A DNA stretch of 33,329 nucleotides from a virus, in the IMG/VR virus record IMGVR_UViG_3300043409_001504, positions 1-33,329 of that record, one strand, 5' to 3'. Below the pieces are notes generated by a model. The model was not told the DNA's origin. It saw only the letters and a program-made list of their open reading frames with translations, and did no database searches. The stretch's first letter is position 1. Each line of letters opens with the position of its first letter. Shown piece by piece: positions 1 to 33,329 of this stretch. The translations under genes and the position numbers were made by a program.

Positions 1-77
1 TTGGAGCTGGAAGTTGAAACTTCAACTTCATCACTTTGCTGTACTTTAGTTCCAGCTTGACTTTTACTATTTTGCAT
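1..77 (-). CDS. Partial attC-encoded leader ORF (MQNS type)
   Basis: An ATG at 77-75 opens 25 codons that run off the left edge, starting MQNSKSQAGT and ending in a Ser/Thr-rich stretch. The same start context (CAAATGCAAAATAGTAA) and similar residues recur in the attC-like sites at 2764 and 5351. It lies in the apical part of the leftmost attC-like site and reads away from the cassette at 168. Whether it is fused to or coupled with a gene further left cannot be seen. Confidence 0.4.
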   Translation of the reverse strand, partial: MQNSKSQAGTKVQQSDEVEVSTSSS

Positions 78-167
78 TTGAATAAATTTTAAACTTTTAA
101 TTATTAATTTGGCTTCGGTTGTCGGCAGACGGAATACTAATCCCCCAACAACGCCAAGCCTTTTTCG

Positions 168-169
<2 letters not shown>
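1..169. repeat. attC-like site 1 (right half only)
   Basis: Only the apical part and the right arm (142-169, core ACAACGCCAAGCC then TTTTTCGTT) are in the window. The left arm lies beyond base 1. The right arm pairs almost perfectly with the left arm of site 8 at 5254-5279, not with any nearer left arm. Confidence 0.65.
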
Positions 170-725
<556 letters not shown>

Positions 726-739
726 TTATATTTTAATTA

Positions 740-820
740 TTAAGAAATATACCCTACTAGATGCATCACAGCTAACATGGGGTTTTGTGCAAGTTGGGCA
801 GACGGATTAAGCCTCAACAT
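740..820 (-). CDS. Possible attC-encoded leader ORF of site 2 (26 aa)
   Basis: An ATG in the apical region reads through the left arm of site 2 in the same frame as the other leaders, giving ...AQNPMLAV across the arm and R box, and stops 17 nt before the exonuclease start. A degenerate remnant (QAGTKAQQ) of the MQNS-type leader lies upstream in another frame. Alone this would be ignored; it is listed because the pattern recurs in sites 3, 4, 5, 7 and 8. Confidence 0.3.
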   Translation of the reverse strand: MLRLNPSAQLAQNPMLAVMHLVGYIS

Positions 821-963
821 TTGTAATACTGTTGTGCTTTAGTTCCAGCTTGACGGAACGCTAATCGTCCATAAAATATATTCTCAACATTTGTTTTTCA
901 ATTTAACTTTTGTAATCGGCAGAAGGAACTCGAAATCCCAACCTGCACAAAGCCCTGTTCGTT
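774..963. repeat. attC-like site 2
   Basis: The left arm 774-798 (AACATGGGGTTTTGTGCAAG, then TTGGG) and right arm 937-963 form an imperfect inverted repeat. The common core is GGG-TTTGTGCA-GTTGGG, with one T/C and one A/G difference at fixed positions that recur in other sites. The outer spacer is 3 nt on the left and 5 nt on the right. The apical part of about 138 nt holds AGCTTGACGG and leader-like sequence shared with site 1. Confidence 0.75.
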
Positions 964-972
964 AGCTGCCAT

Positions 973-1230
973 TTACCGACAACTGCAACCTTGAAAGAAG
1001 TCGTCAACAGACATTTCATTACCATCAGCAAATGAGTTCTTTTCAGTATCCATAAACTTGCCTAATTGCGTTCTTATTTCGTACTCCGTTTTGACTTCAA
1101 TATTTTGCTTGTTTAAGTATTCTTTAAATTCATCTTTACATTCGTAACAGATATAACCTATACCACCACCAACATAAGTATCACACATTATGTTTTCGCA
1201 GCTTTTTCTACTGCAAGACATTACACCCAT
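973..1230 (-). CDS. Small Cys-rich, probably zinc-binding protein, cassette 2
   Basis: The 85-residue reading starts MGVMSCSRKSC. Cysteines are spaced as in a zinc ribbon or knuckle: C-x4-C-x4-C in the first 20 residues, then Cys-Tyr-Glu-Cys about 14 residues later, followed by an acidic and charged tail ending in CSCR. The open frame extends 14 codons further to an ATG at 1272 that is part of the attC R box. I prefer 1230 because the leader ORF of site 3 stops 4 nt before it and because homologous small proteins of this type, as I recall them, begin with the MGVM-type motif. Function is unknown; a structural zinc site is the only supported statement. Confidence 0.65.
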   Translation of the reverse strand: MGVMSCSRKSCENIMCDTYVGGGIGYICYECKDEFKEYLNKQNIEVKTEYEIRTQLGKFMDTEKNSFADGNEMSVDDFFQGCSCR

Positions 1231-1234
1231 AATT

Positions 1235-1333
1235 TTAAAGTTTGCGTCTCGACAAAAAACGGCAGCTAACATTGGGTTTTATGCAAGTTGGGCTTGACGG
1301 AAGTACAATCAACTTTTGTACAAATCCAAGCAT
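1235..1333 (-). CDS. attC-encoded leader ORF of site 3 (32 aa)
   Basis: The ORF starts in the apical loop (MLGFVQKLIV), crosses the left arm as SSPTCIKPNVSC and ends at a TAA (1235-1237) just 4 nt before the ATG of the Cys-rich gene. The spacing would permit translational coupling. The arm-encoded part (Ser-Ser-...-Lys-Pro-Asn-Val) closely matches the leader of site 5. Expression is unproven. Confidence 0.4.
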   Translation of the reverse strand: MLGFVQKLIVLPSSPTCIKPNVSCRFLSRRKL

Positions 1334-1456
1334 CAGTCCCAGCTTGACGTTACCTATTTAGCTTTAGTTCTTTATCTTAACATTTGATTAATAATTTATC
1401 TTTTGTTCCGAGCTTGACGTTGGCTAATTCCAAACCTGCATAAAGCCCTGTACGTT
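1268..1456. repeat. attC-like site 3
   Basis: Left arm 1268-1293 (AACATTGGGTTTTATGCAAG...) pairs with right arm 1430-1456 (...CTGCATAAAGCCCTGTACGTT). GGG-TTTATGCA-GTT-GG is shared, with the same T/C and A/G mismatches as in site 2. The apical part of about 136 nt holds two copies of AGCTTGACGTT. Confidence 0.75.
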
Positions 1457-1532
1457 ATGCGTAATGGCTATATTCCCGTTTCCAAAGACAGTTTCGTGAA
1501 GGAAACAAAAAGAAAAAAGCCCACCGCACATT

Positions 1533-1838
1533 TTAAAAATCAAGGGCGTGATTAGTTAGTTCTGTTGAGTTTTCCAATAGTTCGTTTTTAGTTTTTTCAA
1601 CCTCTGCCAAACTATCTTCATCACACACACCACAACAAGAGCAATGAGCCATAACATAGTTGTTCCAATACTTCCAAGTGGTTTGCCTTAGTTTGCCATC
1701 AACTTTAATAACCATTAAAATACTACTTCTTAATACCTCCATAAGATATTCAGATTGTTCAGTAGTTAATCCTTTTTCTTTTGTAACGTGTAGCGTAATA
1801 TCATACGGCATTGACGTATCAAATACTTGTATTTTCAT
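1533..1838 (-). CDS. Hypothetical protein with CSCCGVC motif, cassette 3
   Basis: This 101-residue protein of unknown function is the second gene of the two-gene cassette 3. It starts MKIQVFDTSMPYDITLHVTK, has a mid-region NNYVMAH followed by Cys-Ser-Cys-Cys-Gly-Val-Cys (about residues 71-77), and a charged helical C-terminal third. The clustered cysteines could bind metal. Its start overlaps the end of the upstream gene by 20 nt, typical of translational coupling. No enzyme motif is recognised. Confidence 0.65.
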   Translation of the reverse strand: MKIQVFDTSMPYDITLHVTKEKGLTTEQSEYLMEVLRSSILMVIKVDGKLRQTTWKYWNNYVMAHCSCCGVCDEDSLAEVEKTKNELLENSTELTNHALDF

Positions 1839-2037
1839 CGTTTAATATTTTGGTAAGTTTTGTATATAAGTTAAGGTAAAAATTGAAGCTGTCAACAAAT
1901 TCAGGTCGCATCCTTATTTTCCTACCAGTAGCTTCATCAAGTGCAGAAAGTCTTTGGTAGTTGTTTATCCCCTCCAATAATATTTCTGTGATTAAATCCA
2001 ACTCTCTATCATCTAATTCAATAATAAATTTTGCCAT
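1819..2037 (-). CDS. Hypothetical 72-aa protein, cassette 3
   Basis: This small acidic, mostly helical protein (MAKFIIELDDRELDLITEIL...) is the first gene of cassette 3. An A-rich stretch with AAAAAAAGG directly precedes the ATG. The N-terminal strand and helix pattern resembles small phage-encoded proteins of unknown function. The product ends inside the start region of the next gene (20 nt overlap), so the two are probably co-translated. No specific family is recognised. Confidence 0.65.
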   Translation of the reverse strand: MAKFIIELDDRELDLITEILLEGINNYQRLSALDEATGRKIRMRPEFVDSFNFYLNLYTKLTKILNDENTSI

Positions 2038-2107
2038 CCTTTTTTTTCTTTTTGTTTCTATCCGTTTTCAATTAAAGTTCATCCTAAATTAACCGCCACA
2101 TACGCAT

Positions 2108-2192
2108 AACATTGGTTTGGCAAAAGTGGGCAGACACATTCTGCTAAAATTGAGCATCCTACAAGCCCACCTTCGCCAAGCCCGAAAACGTT
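2108..2192. repeat. attC-like site 4 (short, 85 bp)
   Basis: The shortest site: left arm 2108-2131 (AACATTGGTTTGGCAAAAGT...), right arm 2165-2192 (...CGCCAAGCCCGAAAACGTT), loop of about 33 nt. The inner 18 bp match at 15 positions. In size it is close to ordinary attC sites. A 22-aa minus-strand ORF (2157 to 2089) starts in the loop and crosses the left arm as AKPMLC, in the same frame as the other leaders. Confidence 0.75.
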
Positions 2193-2202
2193 GTACGAGA
2201 TA

Positions 2203-2625
2203 CTACCAGACAACTTCCAATTCGCTGCCCACTAATGAATAGTAAAGGTTTTGAAGCTGATGCAGATATTTATAATCTAAATGCAAAAAGTCAGTTTTTT
2301 CGACACCTGTGTAATAATCGACAATAGCAATAGCAACAGTATAAATATCTTCATCAAGGTAAACAGCTAATGACTTTAATTTAGTACCGTTTACTTCGTG
2401 CATAACCTTTAAAAAAATGTTAGTTCTATCAATGTTATTGAAACCACATTTCTCTAAAATTTCATCTGTAAGAATAAGCGGCTCTGCTTTTTTATTAGTC
2501 AAGTGGTCATTGTAATTTGTAACAATAAATCCATCGTTTTGTATTTCATTTACTGTTGACGGAATTAAAGGAAATTCGGGGTCAACAATAAAGTTTCCAA
2601 TTCTCAAATCATTTGCTTTAATCAT
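2203..2625 (-). CDS. MIKANDLRIGN-type conserved phage protein, cassette 4
   Basis: The 140-residue protein starts MIKANDLRIGNFI and continues with a small beta-domain, an EPLILTDEILEKCGF motif near residue 50-62 and a C-terminal LHQLQNLYYSLVGSELEV stretch. This N- and C-terminal combination is a frequent hypothetical protein of Bacteroidota phages and prophages; its function is not known to me. It is the only gene of cassette 4. The attC-encoded leader of site 5 overlaps its ATG by 8 nt (ATGATTAA), so translation is probably coupled. Confidence 0.75.
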   Translation of the reverse strand: MIKANDLRIGNFIVDPEFPLIPSTVNEIQNDGFIVTNYNDHLTNKKAEPLILTDEILEKCGFNNIDRTNIFLKVMHEVNGTKLKSLAVYLDEDIYTVAIAIVDYYTGVEKTDFLHLDYKYLHQLQNLYYSLVGSELEVVW

Positions 2626-2764
2626 TATTATATTTTAAAAAGTTTACTAAATTCACCGTACCTCGTACAACATTAGGTTTGGCGTTATAGCTGCTTGACG
2701 TTGTTACATCAGCTTCTGTACTTTGCTGTGCTTCTGCTCCAGCTTTTGAATTACTATTTTGCAT
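2618..2764 (-). CDS. attC-encoded leader ORF of site 5 (48 aa)
   Basis: The ORF starts MQNSNSKAGAEAQQST in the apical loop, crosses the left arm as SSSYNAKPNVVRG and ends in a TAA that overlaps the ATG of the cassette 4 gene (ATGATTAA). Its start context and first residues match the leaders at 77 and 5351. The overlap is the classic stop/start arrangement for re-initiation. No domain is recognisable and expression is unproven. Confidence 0.5.
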   Translation of the reverse strand: MQNSNSKAGAEAQQSTEADVTTSSSYNAKPNVVRGTVNLVNFLKYNND

Positions 2765-2854
2765 TTGTTTTTAATTTTATCAGTTAATCAATATTTTGCT
2801 TTTGTACGGGCTGACGGAATGATATTGCAGCCACAACGCCAAGCCTTTTTCGTT
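2669..2854. repeat. attC-like site 5
   Basis: Left arm 2669-2694 and right arm 2827-2854 share AGG-TTGGCGTT-T-GCTGC (17 of 20). The right arm ends CCTTTTTCGTT. The apical part holds the MQNS-type leader start (CAT at 2762-2764). Confidence 0.78.
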
Positions 2855-2922
2855 GTAGGAAAGCAGTTGACACACCCTAATAATGCAGGGTGGACAAATG
2901 CCGAATAATAAATTGAGGGAAA

Positions 2923-3117
2923 TTATTTTAGTTTGGCAGCAGTATCTTTTGCCATTTCTTTTAAGCCTGCGGATATAGCTTTTTTATCTTCATCTGTAAA
3001 ATCAATAGCTTTCCCATTTCCATCTGTACCACGCATTTTATGGGTAAAGTTTTTTACAGATTTTGCGTAATCGGCAAAGAAATACTTTGCCGATATGTAC
3101 TTTAAAATTTCTTTCAT
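2923..3117 (-). CDS. Hypothetical small basic protein, cassette 5 gene 3
   Basis: The frame is open up to an ATG at 3159 (78 aa), but that would overlap the upstream gene by 41 nt. I choose the ATG at 3117 (MKEILKYISAKYF, 64 aa) because it follows the upstream stop by one base (TAA-T-ATG), the same spacing as between the other two genes of this cassette. The protein has an aromatic-rich N-terminal helix, a short Gly-containing turn (RGTDGNGK) and a Lys/Asp-rich C-terminal helix. No family is recognised. Confidence 0.6.
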   Translation of the reverse strand: MKEILKYISAKYFFADYAKSVKNFTHKMRGTDGNGKAIDFTDEDKKAISAGLKEMAKDTAAKLK

Positions 3118-3118
3118 A

Positions 3119-3328
3119 TTAAAATCGGATTTCTTCAAAACGACCTGTTGTTTGCTCATAACTAAAGTATTGTTCTTTCGTTATTTTGATAGATTTCACA
3201 TCTTCAATTCTTCTATTTTCTTCATGCACTTTTACTTGTTCAATAGCATCGTTTTCAGTTTCTGCCATAACTGCTAATTCTACATTAGCAAAGTTGTAGT
3301 TGCTGTAGCTTACTTTGTAGTAATTCAT
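3119..3328 (-). CDS. Hypothetical 69-aa protein, cassette 5 gene 2
   Basis: MNYYKVSYSNYNFANVELAV... has a beta-alpha-beta look: a tyrosine-rich strand, an acidic helix (AETENDAIEQVKVHEENR) and a second strand, similar in outline to small DpnD/PcfM-like proteins that carry an 'A.T...A...V' helix. That resemblance is only suggestive. It starts one base after the stop of gene 1 and ends one base before the preferred start of gene 3, so the three form a tight operon. Confidence 0.6.
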   Translation of the reverse strand: MNYYKVSYSNYNFANVELAVMAETENDAIEQVKVHEENRRIEDVKSIKITKEQYFSYEQTTGRFEEIRF

Positions 3329-3329
3329 T

Positions 3330-3593
3330 TTAGTTGTATTTTTTAGTTAATAAATCAAAAGTTTTGTTATCGTTTAAGTCTGCTAAAATTTCAGCTACAC
3401 CTCTTTTTTGTTTACCAAAATAACGAGATAAAGTATCGTTAGTGTAAGTAAGTACACAATCAGTAAAACAATATTTTAAACTATCTTCATCAGCTAAAAT
3501 TTGCATAGCTTCTTTAGTTCTTTCAGTAGTTGTATAGTTAGCAATGATTTTTAATATTGCTTCTCTGTTTTCTTTTAAATCTTGAAGTGTCAT
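3330..3593 (-). CDS. Hypothetical 87-aa helical protein, cassette 5 gene 1
   Basis: MTLQDLKENREAILKIIANY... is predominantly helical and acidic/basic mixed, with a central Cys pair (YCFTDC) and a C-terminal RGVAEILADLNDN helix. It is the first of three genes in cassette 5. A TTACTTTG box lies 20-27 nt upstream of the ATG on the minus strand. No functional motif is recognised. Confidence 0.6.
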   Translation of the reverse strand: MTLQDLKENREAILKIIANYTTTERTKEAMQILADEDSLKYCFTDCVLTYTNDTLSRYFGKQKRGVAEILADLNDNKTFDLLTKKYN

Positions 3594-3612
3594 ATCTTTC
3601 AGTTTTGTTACA

Positions 3613-3620
3613 CAAAGTAA
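3613..3620 (-). promoter_or_regulatory. Possible promoter -7 box for cassette 5 genes
   Basis: On the minus strand this reads TTACTTTG, one base from the Bacteroidota consensus TAnnTTTG, 20 nt upstream of the ATG at 3593. No clear TTG -33 element is seen at the expected distance. Confidence 0.35.
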
Positions 3621-3737
3621 ATCATAATTTACTAAACCACCTAATTTTTAGTAAAATTTATTTTACTAAGTTATCCACATTTTTAATTCCCACTCAATTT
3701 CAAAGAACTAAATCAAACACCCTAATTGCCTTCCTAC

Positions 3738-3844
3738 AACATTAGTATTGCTGCAATTAGGGCTTGACGAACAAAGCCAAGCAGATATAAATCCGAACAC
3801 CTGTAACAGTCATTGCCCTACCTGCAAAGCAATACCTGTTCGTT
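3738..3844. repeat. attC-like site 6
   Basis: Left arm 3738-3763 (AACATTAGTATTGCTGCAAT...) pairs with right arm 3825-3844 (...TGCAAAGCAATACCTGTTCGTT) with two extra bases in the right arm. The loop is about 60 nt. The arm sequence AACATTAGTATTGCTGCAA recurs with two differences at the right edge of the window (minus strand, 33329-33311). Confidence 0.72.
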
Positions 3845-3866
3845 AGCAGTCATTGCTACCATACTG

Positions 3867-4334
3867 CTATATAAAGACATATTCTCCATTATCGACACCC
3901 ATAAACAAAAACAACCCATAAACATGATGATACATTCTGTTTACCTTTTTCATTGTAGTTTCAATCATTTCTTCTTTAAGGCTGTCATATAAATAAAGCG
4001 TTCCGTCTTTTGCAATTTTACCACCTACTAAATGATTTTTCCCTTCATCAGAAAATCTCACGTTAATAAGCACAGGTAAAAAATGTATTCCTTCGCCACT
4101 TGGTTTATAATCCAAAGCCGTTTTAGGTAACTTTTTTCCAAAGTGGTTATAGTAAAGTGTATCAATGTAAAATGGGTGTCCATCTTCTTGCATCCATTTT
4201 GAAAGTTGCCCTATTAAATTTCCTGCTTTACTTTTTTCAAGTCTTTCATCTGTAATAAAGTTGTCTAAATTACAGGCATTGGCAACGGCATATAAACCGC
4301 ATCCCCAAGGTTGTTTTTGTTTATGTTTCATCAT
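3867..4334 (-). CDS. Putative papain-like thiol hydrolase, cassette 6
   Basis: This 155-residue protein has the layout of a small papain-fold or C39/Ulp1-like cysteine peptidase. Gln6 or Gln8 precedes the nucleophile motif PWGCGLYAVANA (Cys12) at the start of a helix, His101 sits in a strand (KNHLVGG), and Asp117 follows in the next strand (LYLYDSL). A regulatory or binding segment of about 60 residues lies between Cys and His. No signal peptide is present, so it acts in the cytoplasm, perhaps as a peptidase, deubiquitinase-like or transglutaminase-like enzyme. Family assignment is by motif pattern only. It is the single gene of cassette 6. Confidence 0.6.
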   Translation of the reverse strand: MMKHKQKQPWGCGLYAVANACNLDNFITDERLEKSKAGNLIGQLSKWMQEDGHPFYIDTLYYNHFGKKLPKTALDYKPSGEGIHFLPVLINVRFSDEGKNHLVGGKIAKDGTLYLYDSLKEEMIETTMKKVNRMYHHVYGLFLFMGVDNGEYVFI

Positions 4335-4374
4335 TTTATTGAAATTTATCGTTAATAATCCGCAACGAACTGCT

Positions 4375-4500
4375 AACAGGGGTTTTGCGTAATGGGGGCT
4401 TCTGTACTACTATTTATCATTTGTGCTTTTATTAAACTTTTGTAATTTTATTGAGCTTTTGTGGTTCTATATCCACCACTACGCAAAGCCCCAAAACGTT
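4375..4500. repeat. attC-like site 7
   Basis: Left arm 4375-4398 (AACAGGGGTTTTGCGTAATG...) pairs with right arm 4473-4500 (...CTACGCAAAGCCCCAAAACGTT), again with T/C and A/G differences at the standard places. A 15-codon minus-strand ORF (4420 to 4373, MINSSTEAPITQNPC) starts in the loop and stops at a TAG formed by the R box. Its MxNS start and PIT-x-x-P segment resemble the leader of site 8. Confidence 0.78.
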
Positions 4501-4510
4501 AGCTGCAACC

Positions 4511-4984
4511 CTAAAACGGCAGTCCGTCATCAACAACAGACACAGGTTCTAATGGACGGACACCAGTTTTTATAGTTTCTAAATCGTTTGTATGCTTTGA
4601 AATACCTTGATTGGCATATTTTGTTTTCCAGTAAATTATATCTCTGTATTTTGACACATTGTAACTTACGCCTTCAAATTCAATTACATCAAATGAAGGT
4701 TCAGGACAAACACGAATATCCATTTTAATGTACCAATCATTATCAACATTCTTTTTTATAGCATAGTCAAAATCATTTGCATCGCTTCTTTGCTCATAAT
4801 CTTTTAATGCTTCGTTTTCAAATACAAATTCATCAATCGTAATATCTAAATCTGATTTGCTTAAATCTCTCAAAAGGTTTATACCTCTTAAAAATAACCC
4901 AATACTTCCTCCAACGTGGGCAGTAGGATATTTTTCTTGAAACTCTTTTAAGGTTTCTAATTTTCATTTAATTAATCTGTTCAT
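4511..4984 (-). pseudogene. Nucleotidyltransferase-fold protein interrupted by in-frame TGA, cassette 7
   Basis: The frame from 4873 (120 aa) could begin only with a TTG. Reading further upstream in the same frame gives a coherent N-terminus, KLETLKEFQEKYPTAHVGGS, back to an ATG at 4984 (MNRLIK) with one TGA at codon 7 (4966-4964). The joined protein has the minimal nucleotidyltransferase pattern: Gly25-Gly26-Ser27, SDLDI (Asp45, Asp47) and a third acidic position in KMDIRV (Asp89). The protein ends in DDGLPF, like the acidic tip of SSB proteins. TGA is a normal stop elsewhere in the window, so this is most simply a nonsense mutation; readthrough or a sequencing error are alternatives. The ATG lies 50 nt after the stop of the upstream gene of the same cassette. 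Confidence 0.6.
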
Positions 4985-5033
4985 TTTATATTTATTAAAT
5001 TGTTAGTAATCCGAGAAAGGACAGCCTGACAAT

Positions 5034-5351
5034 TTAAGCCTTTTGGAATGCTTGTGCATTTTTAAGGTCGTTAATTCTCATAATTAAAACACGTTGATAG
5101 GTAAGCATTGCACTGTGTTGTAAATGCAGTAATTCAAATTGAAATAACCCAACTTTTACAACAAAACCATCGCTTGAAATAGCTTTGTTTAAAGCAACAA
5201 TTTTTTCGCCTAATTCTTCATTTTCTACAATCACCCAATTAAGCCCAGCAGCCAACATAGGTTTTGGCGTTATTGGGGCTGACGTAGTTTCAATCGGCTG
5301 TTGTAACTCTGTTGTGCTGTTGTCTAAGCTGGACGGATTACTATTTTGCAT
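5034..5351 (-). CDS. Cassette 7 gene fused in frame to an attC-encoded leader
   Basis: The first 36 or so residues (MQNSNPSSLDNS ... TPKPMLAAG) are encoded by attC-like site 8, including its left arm and R box. The cassette-specific part follows directly (LNWVIVENEELGEK...), with no ATG of its own before a methionine two-thirds of the way along. This core of about 69 residues is helical, with FQFELLHLQHSAMLTYQRVL and RINDLKN segments of a kind seen in small phage proteins; its function is unknown. A GTG within the core (VIVENEE) could serve as a native start. Translation from the attC leader is the simplest reading of the sequence. Confidence 0.6.
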   Translation of the reverse strand: MQNSNPSSLDNSTTELQQPIETTSAPITPKPMLAAGLNWVIVENEELGEKIVALNKAISSDGFVVKVGLFQFELLHLQHSAMLTYQRVLIMRINDLKNAQAFQKA

Positions 5352-5441
5352 TTGTATTTTATTTAACTTTTGAATAATTATTTAGCTTTTGCTCCATCGT
5401 GACGTACTTCGCCATCACACCTGCACAAAGCCCTGTTTGTT
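5254..5441. repeat. attC-like site 8 (hybrid arms)
   Basis: Left arm 5254-5279 (AACATAGGTTTTGGCGTTAT...) and right arm (to 5441, ...CCTGCACAAAGCCCTGTTTGTT) do not match each other well. The left arm is the near-perfect partner of site 1's right arm (TTGGCGTT-TTGGGG), and the right arm is of the site 2 type (CCTGCACAAAGCCCTG). The apical loop carries the MQNS leader start at 5351. The site therefore looks like a recombinant. Confidence 0.7.
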
Positions 5442-5446
5442 GTACG

Positions 5447-5608
5447 CTATTTTGTGGAGACGCCCAAAAACTCATAGCATTGCTTTTGGACTTCTTCTTT
5501 ACCACCTCGTTTATCTAATTCAGATTGACGAATGAATAAGTTTACAACCAGTTTTTTATCTTCAACAGGTTTGCGACCAGCAGGGCTTTTTTTTATTTGC
5601 TTTGCCAT
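5447..5608 (-). CDS. Small basic DNA-binding-like protein, cassette 8 gene 2
   Basis: The 53-residue reading is MAKQIKKSPAGRKPVEDKKL, then a strand VVNLFIRQSE and a helix LDKRGGKEEVQKQCYEFLGV. The N-terminal basic AGRKP is AT-hook-like, and a short strand followed by helices is reminiscent of ribbon-helix-helix proteins. The ATG lies two bases after the stop of the upstream gene (TAA-TA-ATG). The stop (TAG, 5449-5447) falls inside the cassette-start repeat. Function beyond likely nucleic-acid binding is unknown. Confidence 0.6.
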   Translation of the reverse strand: MAKQIKKSPAGRKPVEDKKLVVNLFIRQSELDKRGGKEEVQKQCYEFLGVSTK

Positions 5609-5610
5609 TA

Positions 5611-5841
5611 TTAGTGTGTTTTAATTGTAATGTAATTATCACCTTCTTTGCCTGAGCAAAGAATGAAACCAGCTTTTTTTAAAGCATAACGATTTTTAAT
5701 ATTACTTTCAATTTTTACATCAAAAGTTCTGCCATCGCCTAAATTTTCAGCTTTACAATCAAAACCATTAGATTTTAAAATAGAACTTACTTGAGATGCT
5801 GTTCTTTTACCAAAATTATTACTGTTGTTTACCTTTGTCAT
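5611..5841 (-). CDS. Hypothetical 76-aa protein, cassette 8 gene 1
   Basis: MTKVNNSNNFGKRTASQVSS starts a small, basic, alpha/beta protein with a C-terminal strand-rich part (ALKKAGFILCSGKEGDNYITIKTH). Unlike most cassette genes it has an exact TATATTTG promoter box 25-32 nt upstream, so it can be transcribed independently. It is followed by the basic 53-aa gene in the same cassette. No family is recognised. Confidence 0.65.
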   Translation of the reverse strand: MTKVNNSNNFGKRTASQVSSILKSNGFDCKAENLGDGRTFDVKIESNIKNRYALKKAGFILCSGKEGDNYITIKTH

Positions 5842-5865
5842 TTTGTTTATTGTTTAATTACTATG

Positions 5866-5873
5866 CAAATATA
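5866..5873 (-). promoter_or_regulatory. Bacteroidota promoter -7 box
   Basis: On the minus strand this is TATATTTG followed by C, the exact consensus, 25 nt upstream of the ATG at 5841. It would transcribe both genes of cassette 8 and possibly read on through site 8. Confidence 0.65.
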
Positions 5874-5963
5874 CAACCTTTATTTTAATTTCCAAATAAT
5901 TTTATTAAAATTTAATTATTTATTTTTAGACAGTTTGTAAAGTGCTGAATATCAAATAAAAAC

Positions 5964-6000
5964 AGCGTACAACAATGTAGCTGCCATTTGCGACAGCCCC
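5964..6000. repeat. attC-like half-site 9 at the array/phage junction
   Basis: AGCGTACAAC (5964-5973) is the perfect complement of the cassette 8 start (5439-5448), and AACAATGTAGCTGCC... continues like a left arm ending in GCCCC. No matching right arm or CGTT follows; instead a minus-strand gene ends at 6000. The array is truncated or interrupted here. Confidence 0.6.
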
Positions 6001-6985: not shown

Positions 6986-7100
6986 GGAGATGTGGCGAAA
7001 TTGGTAAACGCTAATGTGGTAAGATGTAAAGCCTTGAACTATTTATAGTTAGGTTGCCAGCAAAGTTTACATCATGCAGGTTCGACCCCTGCCATCTCCG
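6986..7100 (+). tRNA. tRNA-like element with abnormal anticodon region
   Basis: The ends are those of a tRNA: a 7-bp acceptor stem (GGAGATG 6986-6992 with CATCTCC 7093-7099), a D arm GCGAAATTGGTAAACGC with the GGT core, and a perfect T arm GCAGG-TTCGACC-CCTGC (7076-7092). CCA is not encoded. The body resembles tRNA-Leu. Between the D and T stems are 64 nt instead of about 35, with no 5-bp stem plus 7-nt loop at the expected place. Instead GATGTAAA (7023-7030) pairs with TTTACATC (7066-7073) around an inner hairpin (AACTA/TAGTT). The anticodon cannot be assigned. It may be a degraded tRNA, one carrying an insertion, or a structured RNA that mimics tRNA. Confidence 0.6.
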
Positions 7101-32652: not shown

Positions 32653-33111
32653 ATGTTAACCACAGCACAATTAACAGCAAAATATGGCAAGCCTAATATT
32701 ACAGGTGAAGGCTATTTAACACAAATAACATTGCCCTACCCTATGTTTTACGAGGGTAAAAAAGTAACTAAAATGAGTTGTCATAAATTAGTTGCTCAAA
32801 ACTTCTTAAATGTGTTCAATGATTTATTGGAACACTATGGCATTGATGAAATCCACAGGCTACAAATAGACGATTTTGGCGGCTGCTTTAATTATCGTTT
32901 AATGCGTGGAGGTACTCAATTAAGTACACATAGTTGGGGTGTTGCAATAGATTTAGACCCCGACAGAAATCAACTAAAAGAAACGTCTAAGACAGCAAGG
33001 TTTGCCCGACCAGAATACAAGCCAATGATTGATATATTTTACAAGCATGGCTTTGAAAGTTTAGGACGTGAGGAAAACAGAGATTGGATGCACTTTCAAA
33101 TATCTAGTTAA
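32653..33111 (+). CDS. Endolysin, M15-family peptidoglycan peptidase
   Basis: The 152-residue protein is a compact peptidase M15 (VanY/Ply500-like) domain. Zinc ligands are in THSWGVAIDLDP (His93, Asp100) and DWMHFQ (His147), with the catalytic acid expected at Asp144; RLMRGGTQLS precedes the first motif as in L-alanyl-D-glutamate peptidases. It cuts the peptide crosslink of peptidoglycan at lysis. There is no signal peptide, so it relies on the holin-like proteins upstream. The minus-strand gene at 33306 overlaps its last 51 nt. Confidence 0.9.
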   Translation: MLTTAQLTAKYGKPNITGEGYLTQITLPYPMFYEGKKVTKMSCHKLVAQNFLNVFNDLLEHYGIDEIHRLQIDDFGGCFNYRLMRGGTQLSTHSWGVAIDLDPDRNQLKETSKTARFARPEYKPMIDIFYKHGFESLGREENRDWMHFQISS

Positions 33112-33306
33112 CGCATTTTTTATTTGTTCATAACTCACTCTTACATTCCCAATTTTCCAGTAAAGAATAGCCTTTTGTTTTGGTACGAAAGGCTTTATTA
33201 TTTTAAACCCTATACCTAAAGCCATTGGTTTACAGCAAAACCAACACTCTATACCATCAATAACAATGGTAAACGATTTGTGCTTATAATCAATTACTTG
33301 TATCAT
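33061..33306 (-). CDS. Hypothetical 81-aa protein convergent with the endolysin
   Basis: MIQVIDYKHKSFTIVIDGIE begins a strand-rich protein with a WFCCKPMALGIGF segment and a KIGNVRVSYEQIKNAL helix. The amphipathic pattern continues until about residue 66 and then enters the overlap with the endolysin, so the true C-terminus may be real or just lack an earlier stop. The ATG lies next to an attC-arm-like sequence at the window edge. Function is unknown. Confidence 0.55.
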   Translation of the reverse strand: MIQVIDYKHKSFTIVIDGIECWFCCKPMALGIGFKIIKPFVPKQKAILYWKIGNVRVSYEQIKNALTRYLKVHPISVFLTS

Positions 33307-33310
33307 GTTG

Positions 33311-33329
33311 TTGCGGCAATACTATTGTT
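33311..33329 (-). repeat. attC-arm-like sequence at the right edge
   Basis: On the minus strand this reads AACAATAGTATTGCCGCAA, 17 of 19 identical to the left arm of site 6 (3738-3756). On the plus strand it ends GCAATACTATTGTT, so it can also be seen as a right arm with R-box GTT at the last bases. The rest lies outside the window. Confidence 0.5.

Follow-up and report, generated by a model that had tools for sequence, protein, structure and literature searches.

A putative attI-like docking site for integron cassettes at the end of a tailed-phage contig

What does the right edge of this viral contig represent? The window, by which we mean the whole stretch of DNA that was analysed, is an entire IMG/VR record of 33,329 nt that is classed as linear. 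As it is the complete public record, its right edge is the end of the data. An array of small genes separated by attC sites occupies positions 1 to ~5990, and the remaining sequence is the core of a tailed phage, encoding helicase, exonuclease, primase, terminase, portal, tape measure and endolysin. A first-pass annotation of the sequence read the last 19 bases (33,311–33,329) as an attC arm and suggested that the phage region might be one giant insert within or between cassette sites.

The array consists of eight cassettes (c0 to c7), all on the minus strand and separated by attC sites A0 to A7. These sites have the form RYYYAAC ... GTTRRRY with pairing arms, share one orientation and lie between small genes. 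The first, A0 (1–169), is cut by the left contig edge. It is followed by cassette c0 (167–776), with a 3'-5' exonuclease-like gene (168–722; PF16473, phrog_2259); attC A1 (774–963), identified by profile and by a partner-arm test; c1 (961–1270; phrog_22735); A2 (1268–1456); c2 (1454–2110), with two small ORFs; A3 (2108–2192); c3 (2190–2671; phrog_10066); A4 (2669–2854); and c4 (2852–3740), with a DUF5053 ORF and others. The remainder comprises A5 (3738–3844), c5 (3842–4377), A6 (4375–4500), c6 (4498–5256), A7 (5254–5441; a profile match for which the partner-arm test was not significant) and c7 (5439–5973). Several of the cassette genes belong to phage protein families (the phrog_2259 exonuclease and phrog_22735, phrog_10066, phrog_3343 and phrog_774). 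No homologues of the window cassette genes were found in the fetched chromosomal arrays, and the DNA of attC A1 had no match in annotated phages (INPHARED). In 7 of the 8 cassettes the start (TTRRRY...) is complementary to the cassette's own end (...RYYYAA) over 9–14 nt, including the GTT, and none of the 40,320 ways of pairing starts with ends does better than the true one. Matched ends were seen in 212 cassettes in all, counting the window together with the other chromosomal and viral loci. Complementary ends of this kind are the signature of integron cassettes.

The boundary between the array and the phage core at the left is formed by a further minus-strand site, A8 (5964–5991). The first-pass annotation had treated this sequence, at 5971, as a half-site forming the left arm of a pair completed at the right edge. 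In A8, GCGTACAACAATG is fused directly to TAGCTGCCATTT, placing both outer attC parts within ~30 bases. The first part corresponds to the outer portion of one arm. The second, which comprises the outer portion of the opposite arm and some flank, occurs also after attC A1 (AAATGGCAGCTA). A8 looks most like an attC remnant that would have lost its interior by deletion. Because it holds both outer attC parts, it needs no partner 27 kb away, and for the same reason a 27-kb insert inside one attC was rejected. The two ends do have AACAAT and TGCC in common, in inverted orientation, as had been reported, and this favours the notion that the phage is a single insert with arms at 5971 and 33,329. Besides the composition of A8, however, related phage genomes stand against it: one that is exactly circular (G027) and one that is nearly so (G001) carry such an array inside the genome. 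Thus, the array is cargo of the phage, the reverse of the relation first proposed, and we consider the giant insert extremely improbable.

The right edge itself reads TTGCGGCAATACTATTGTT on the plus strand and AACAATAGTATTGCCGCAA on the minus strand. Its best match elsewhere in the window is AACATTAGTATTGCTGCAA at 3738–3756, the arm of attC A5 (site 6 of the first-pass annotation). The two agree at 17 of 19 positions with the AAC in register, exactly as had been claimed. Agreement of this quality with any attC region of the window is reached at only 4 of the 27,111 positions beyond 6200 (~1.5e-4 per fixed position). The exact edge sequence is absent from all other IMG/VR contigs searched, and the folding of the edge alone is unremarkable (z -1.4). 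The 19-base match by itself would not decide the nature of the right edge. The last bases could be ordinary sequence upstream of a small ORF that resembles an attC arm by chance, as 1.1% of random 19-mers from the window have some 17/19 match elsewhere in it, and the ORF (33,061–33,306) begins only a few bases away. Set against this are the register of the AAC, the fit to an array-end motif made without the window (see below), the fact that the contig stops exactly at GTT and the similar gene order of the phage genome G027/L365. We therefore regard coincidence as unlikely.

An attC arm should have a complementary partner within ~250 nt, and none was found for the right edge within the next 300 nt, where the gapped partner score equalled the null (p = 0.57). 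By comparison, 6 of the 7 local attC sites have a partner arm: A1 to A6 were detected by this test (p < 0.002) and one real attC, A7, was missed (p = 0.30). Given the lack of a complementary second arm nearby, the right edge is probably not an attC arm.

We then compared the edge with the ends of other arrays. Cassettes with matched ends were gathered from chromosomal and viral loci whose attC sites are of the same family, and those without a following attC were taken as array ends (gene-3' side). Many of these ends, in Bacteroidota chromosomes and in other phages, carry the motif RYYYAAC-N6-ATTNNCGCA or close variants. Chromosomal examples are AACGTGTGTATTTACGCA (L272) and AACGTTTGCATTGACGCA (L312) and viral ones are AACATCTGCATTGCCGCA (L369) and AACTCTCTTATATACGCA (L365); the corresponding sequence at the window edge is AACAATAGTATTGCCGCA. 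The motif is short. Because its chromosomal and viral sites had been chosen by eye from a scan, each set was tested on the other. A phage-only motif that excludes the window, with a threshold at 99.9% of background, accepted 4 of 17 array-terminal chromosomal cassettes and none of the 132 that have an attC after them. Eleven of the 17 chromosomal array ends fall within the top 2% of background and the other six are not matched by the motif. For the window edge, the phage-only motif gives a score at the 0.1% background level. The combined chromosomal and phage motif places the edge first of the 1,509 AAC sites in the window, and a position-specific scoring matrix (PSSM) built from chromosomal sites only places it fifth of 66,620 positions; these rankings are stronger evidence than the 17/19 match. 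The same matrix places the arm of A5 at 3738, a genuine attC, first and above the edge, which indicates that attC arms and docking sites are related and not cleanly separable by sequence alone; the array end of L367 scores poorly with it. Docking sites are told from attC arms by their position and by the missing partner arm. The right edge fits the motif and has no partner arm, and the bases that follow GTT in a complete site (RRRY, belonging to the next cassette) lie outside the record. We thus annotate 33,311–33,329 on the minus strand as the core of a putative attI-like docking site (...TTGCGGCAATACTATT G|TT on the plus strand). The right edge is probably an integron-type recombination half-site, and the earlier suggestion that it bounds the phage block stands; its identification as an attC arm and its pairing with 5971 are not supported.

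Both the attC family and the terminal site are also present in host chromosomes (Chitinophagaceae and relatives). Directly beyond the terminal site, four chromosomal loci (L268, L273, L289 and L306) have a gene for a tyrosine recombinase or for its C-terminal part, oriented with the C-terminus toward the site, and short C-terminal recombinase remnants lie beyond the site at two others (L256 and L264). No recombinase gene was present within the flanking DNA examined at the remaining array-terminal loci, so adjacency is frequent, not universal. At the Bacteroidota loci the cassette genes and the recombinase are convergent, both pointing at the docking site. The enzyme of L289 reaches 188 bits against NF040815 (site-specific tyrosine recombinase/integron integrase; cut-off 220) and 161.9 bits against TIGR02249 (cut-off 265). 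As both values are below the curated thresholds, it is not a canonical IntI; no TIGR02249 match above 265 bits was found in any of 13 host genomes. The chromosomal recombinase scores as much like XerA/XerC/XerD as like IntI, and the docking site can be divided into an 11-base arm, a spacer of 6 bases and a GTT arm. Both features would suit a Xer/dif-like site worked by host XerC/XerD rather than an attI proper. We find this improbable given that the site has hairpin attC sites as partners and the cassettes have cognate ends, as in integrons, and that the recombinase gene is local to the array. In the window, G001, G027, G028 and L366, tblastn gave no match to the chromosomal recombinase, suggesting that the attI-like site of the phage is probably served by a recombinase supplied by the host.

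The first-pass annotation had called for a check for a circular junction. The window record is not circular; of its relatives, G027 is, and G001 is nearly so. G027 (32,157 nt) has an exact terminal repeat of 127 nt, indicating a complete circular genome. Its array ends at AACTTGCGTATATAAGAGAG|TT, adjoining a small minus-strand ORF and a lysozyme gene. The order in G027/L365 is lysozyme, small minus-strand ORF, docking site and minus-strand cassettes, and the first three elements match the right edge of the window. There, an endolysin-like gene (32,653–33,111, plus strand; phrog_6584/17001) is the last core gene before the docking site, and an 81-aa ORF (33,061–33,306, minus strand), placed as in L365, lies between the two. 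We found no relatives of the 81-aa ORF. The endolysin-like gene is absent from the terminase relatives tested, and the fetched stretches around its own relatives contain no arrays.

G001 is the closest relative by terminase (71%) and has a longer array. Its contig ends, which make it near-circular, overlap over 124 nt through the docking site and then diverge, one into cassette a and the other into cassette c. Within the contig, cassette c is two cassettes further on than a; one junction variant thus lacks two cassettes. The sample probably contained both junctions, which would follow if excision of cassettes a and b is possible, and the polymorphism suggests gain or loss of cassettes. The two junctions rest on one assembly and have 14 nt in common around the cut, so the exact crossover cannot be read and homologous recombination could also explain them. 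For the gene beside the docking site of G001, the only relative found was G001 itself. Cassette a (L163 113–637) encodes a Dam-like methylase, which is therefore in one junction and missing from the other.

These genomes also bear on whether the window records a prophage junction, with positions 1–5973 being host chromosome and the phage adjoining a host attI. The presence of the same attC family and terminal site in chromosomes of Chitinophagaceae and related bacteria, together with the non-circular record, would agree with such a junction. However, circular G027 and near-circular G001 bear arrays at the same kind of site, the cassette cargo matches phage protein families, and the record has no match to the array recombinase. 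A host/prophage junction is thus very unlikely.

We conclude that the right edge is probably the phage core's own attI-like docking site, at which cassettes would be exchanged by a recombinase supplied by the host. The computed support consists of the motif, its location at phage and chromosomal array ends, and the recombinase beyond it in four loci, and further of the cognate cassette ends, the lack of a detectable phage recombinase and the two junctions in G001. The phage is presumably circular. Its plus-strand order would then be endolysin, small minus-strand ORF, docking site, at least one unrecorded cassette, c0 to c7, A8 and the replication genes. Cassettes would enter or leave when the docking site recombines with a cassette attC at G|TT, with the cut predicted between G and TT and a host tyrosine recombinase catalysing the exchange in trans. 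The variable cassette that comes next would start past G|TT, outside the record. The contig may stop exactly at GTT because this cassette varies among phage individuals, by analogy with G001.

The array has no integrase gene and so falls among the clusters of attC sites lacking an integron integrase (CALINs). Such clusters have been described in phages, including virulent ones, by Qi et al. (2023; PMC9892861), who demonstrated IntI1-mediated recombination of phage attC sites with attI1 in E. coli. They reported GTTRRRY motifs at CALIN boundaries and suggested off-target homologous or illegitimate recombination. The phage arrays described here resemble the published phage CALINs (PMC9892861), which include that of the virulent Polaribacter phage P12002L, in having attC sites and cassettes without an integrase gene and methyltransferase cargo. 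They differ in that the boundary fits an attI-like motif common to host arrays and that one relative has two junctions. A cryptic Shewanella prophage, M16-3 (PMC9892861), similarly has an attI site and a cassette array inside phage DNA, but that site is of the Shewanella type and the prophage also has a complete integron, whereas here the motif is different and apparently complete phages lack an integrase. The reverse integrons of Treponema denticola (PMC7691350) likewise have a non-canonical orientation of the integrase relative to the cassettes; in these, integrase and cassettes have the same direction, unlike the convergence on the docking site in the Bacteroidota loci, a layout that differs also from the usual divergent one. 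We found no Bacteroidota integrons with this layout in the literature covered (open papers, titles and abstracts). Phage cassette clusters are thus already published; a defined docking motif common to phages and chromosomes, a local non-IntI recombinase in a convergent layout, and the junction polymorphism go beyond Qi et al. and look new.

The entry of CALINs into phages has hitherto been ascribed to accidental recombination. If phages and chromosomal arrays have a docking site in common, phages would take part in cassette exchange regularly, and genes such as those for DNA methylases could be swapped quickly in a simple way. Such a site would also account for phage contigs of this kind breaking at array ends, and the findings point to an integron type of Bacteroidota whose recombinase is not IntI and whose layout is convergent. 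More tentatively, Bacteroidota phages may keep an attI-like site with a changing library of cassettes (methyltransferases, nucleotide-metabolism genes and small phage genes), which a XerA-like array recombinase of the host, not a canonical IntI, could swap between phage and chromosome, giving many cargo versions per population.

Other viral loci show related features. The exonuclease family of c0 (168–722) recurs at 76–77% identity as a cassette in L172 and next to a docking-like site in L171, which suggests that phages exchange it. L171, a single viral contig, has two near-identical docking-like sites (at 1739 and 2841), and the same AT-rich leader follows each of them. Half of an attC and a docking-like sequence (L162, 9570–9604 and ~9990) occur on a viral contig with transposase-like genes. 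On L366 (5128 nt), one array holds genes for ThyX, a DUF3310 protein, two methyltransferase-like proteins and one PAPS-reductase-like protein between its attC sites. Frames of cassettes frequently begin inside the upstream attC and cross its arm and the G|TT (5034–5351 in the window; 2219–2935 and 4148–5026 in L366; 3330–4163 and 4816–5253 in L367; 2086–2688 and 2802–3704 in L365), so that attC sites may supply a start codon and leader peptide. Finally, a tRNA with a long insertion or variable arm, which ARAGORN missed, is encoded in the window at 6986–7100 on the plus strand (Rfam RF00005, 38.2 bits, above the gathering score).
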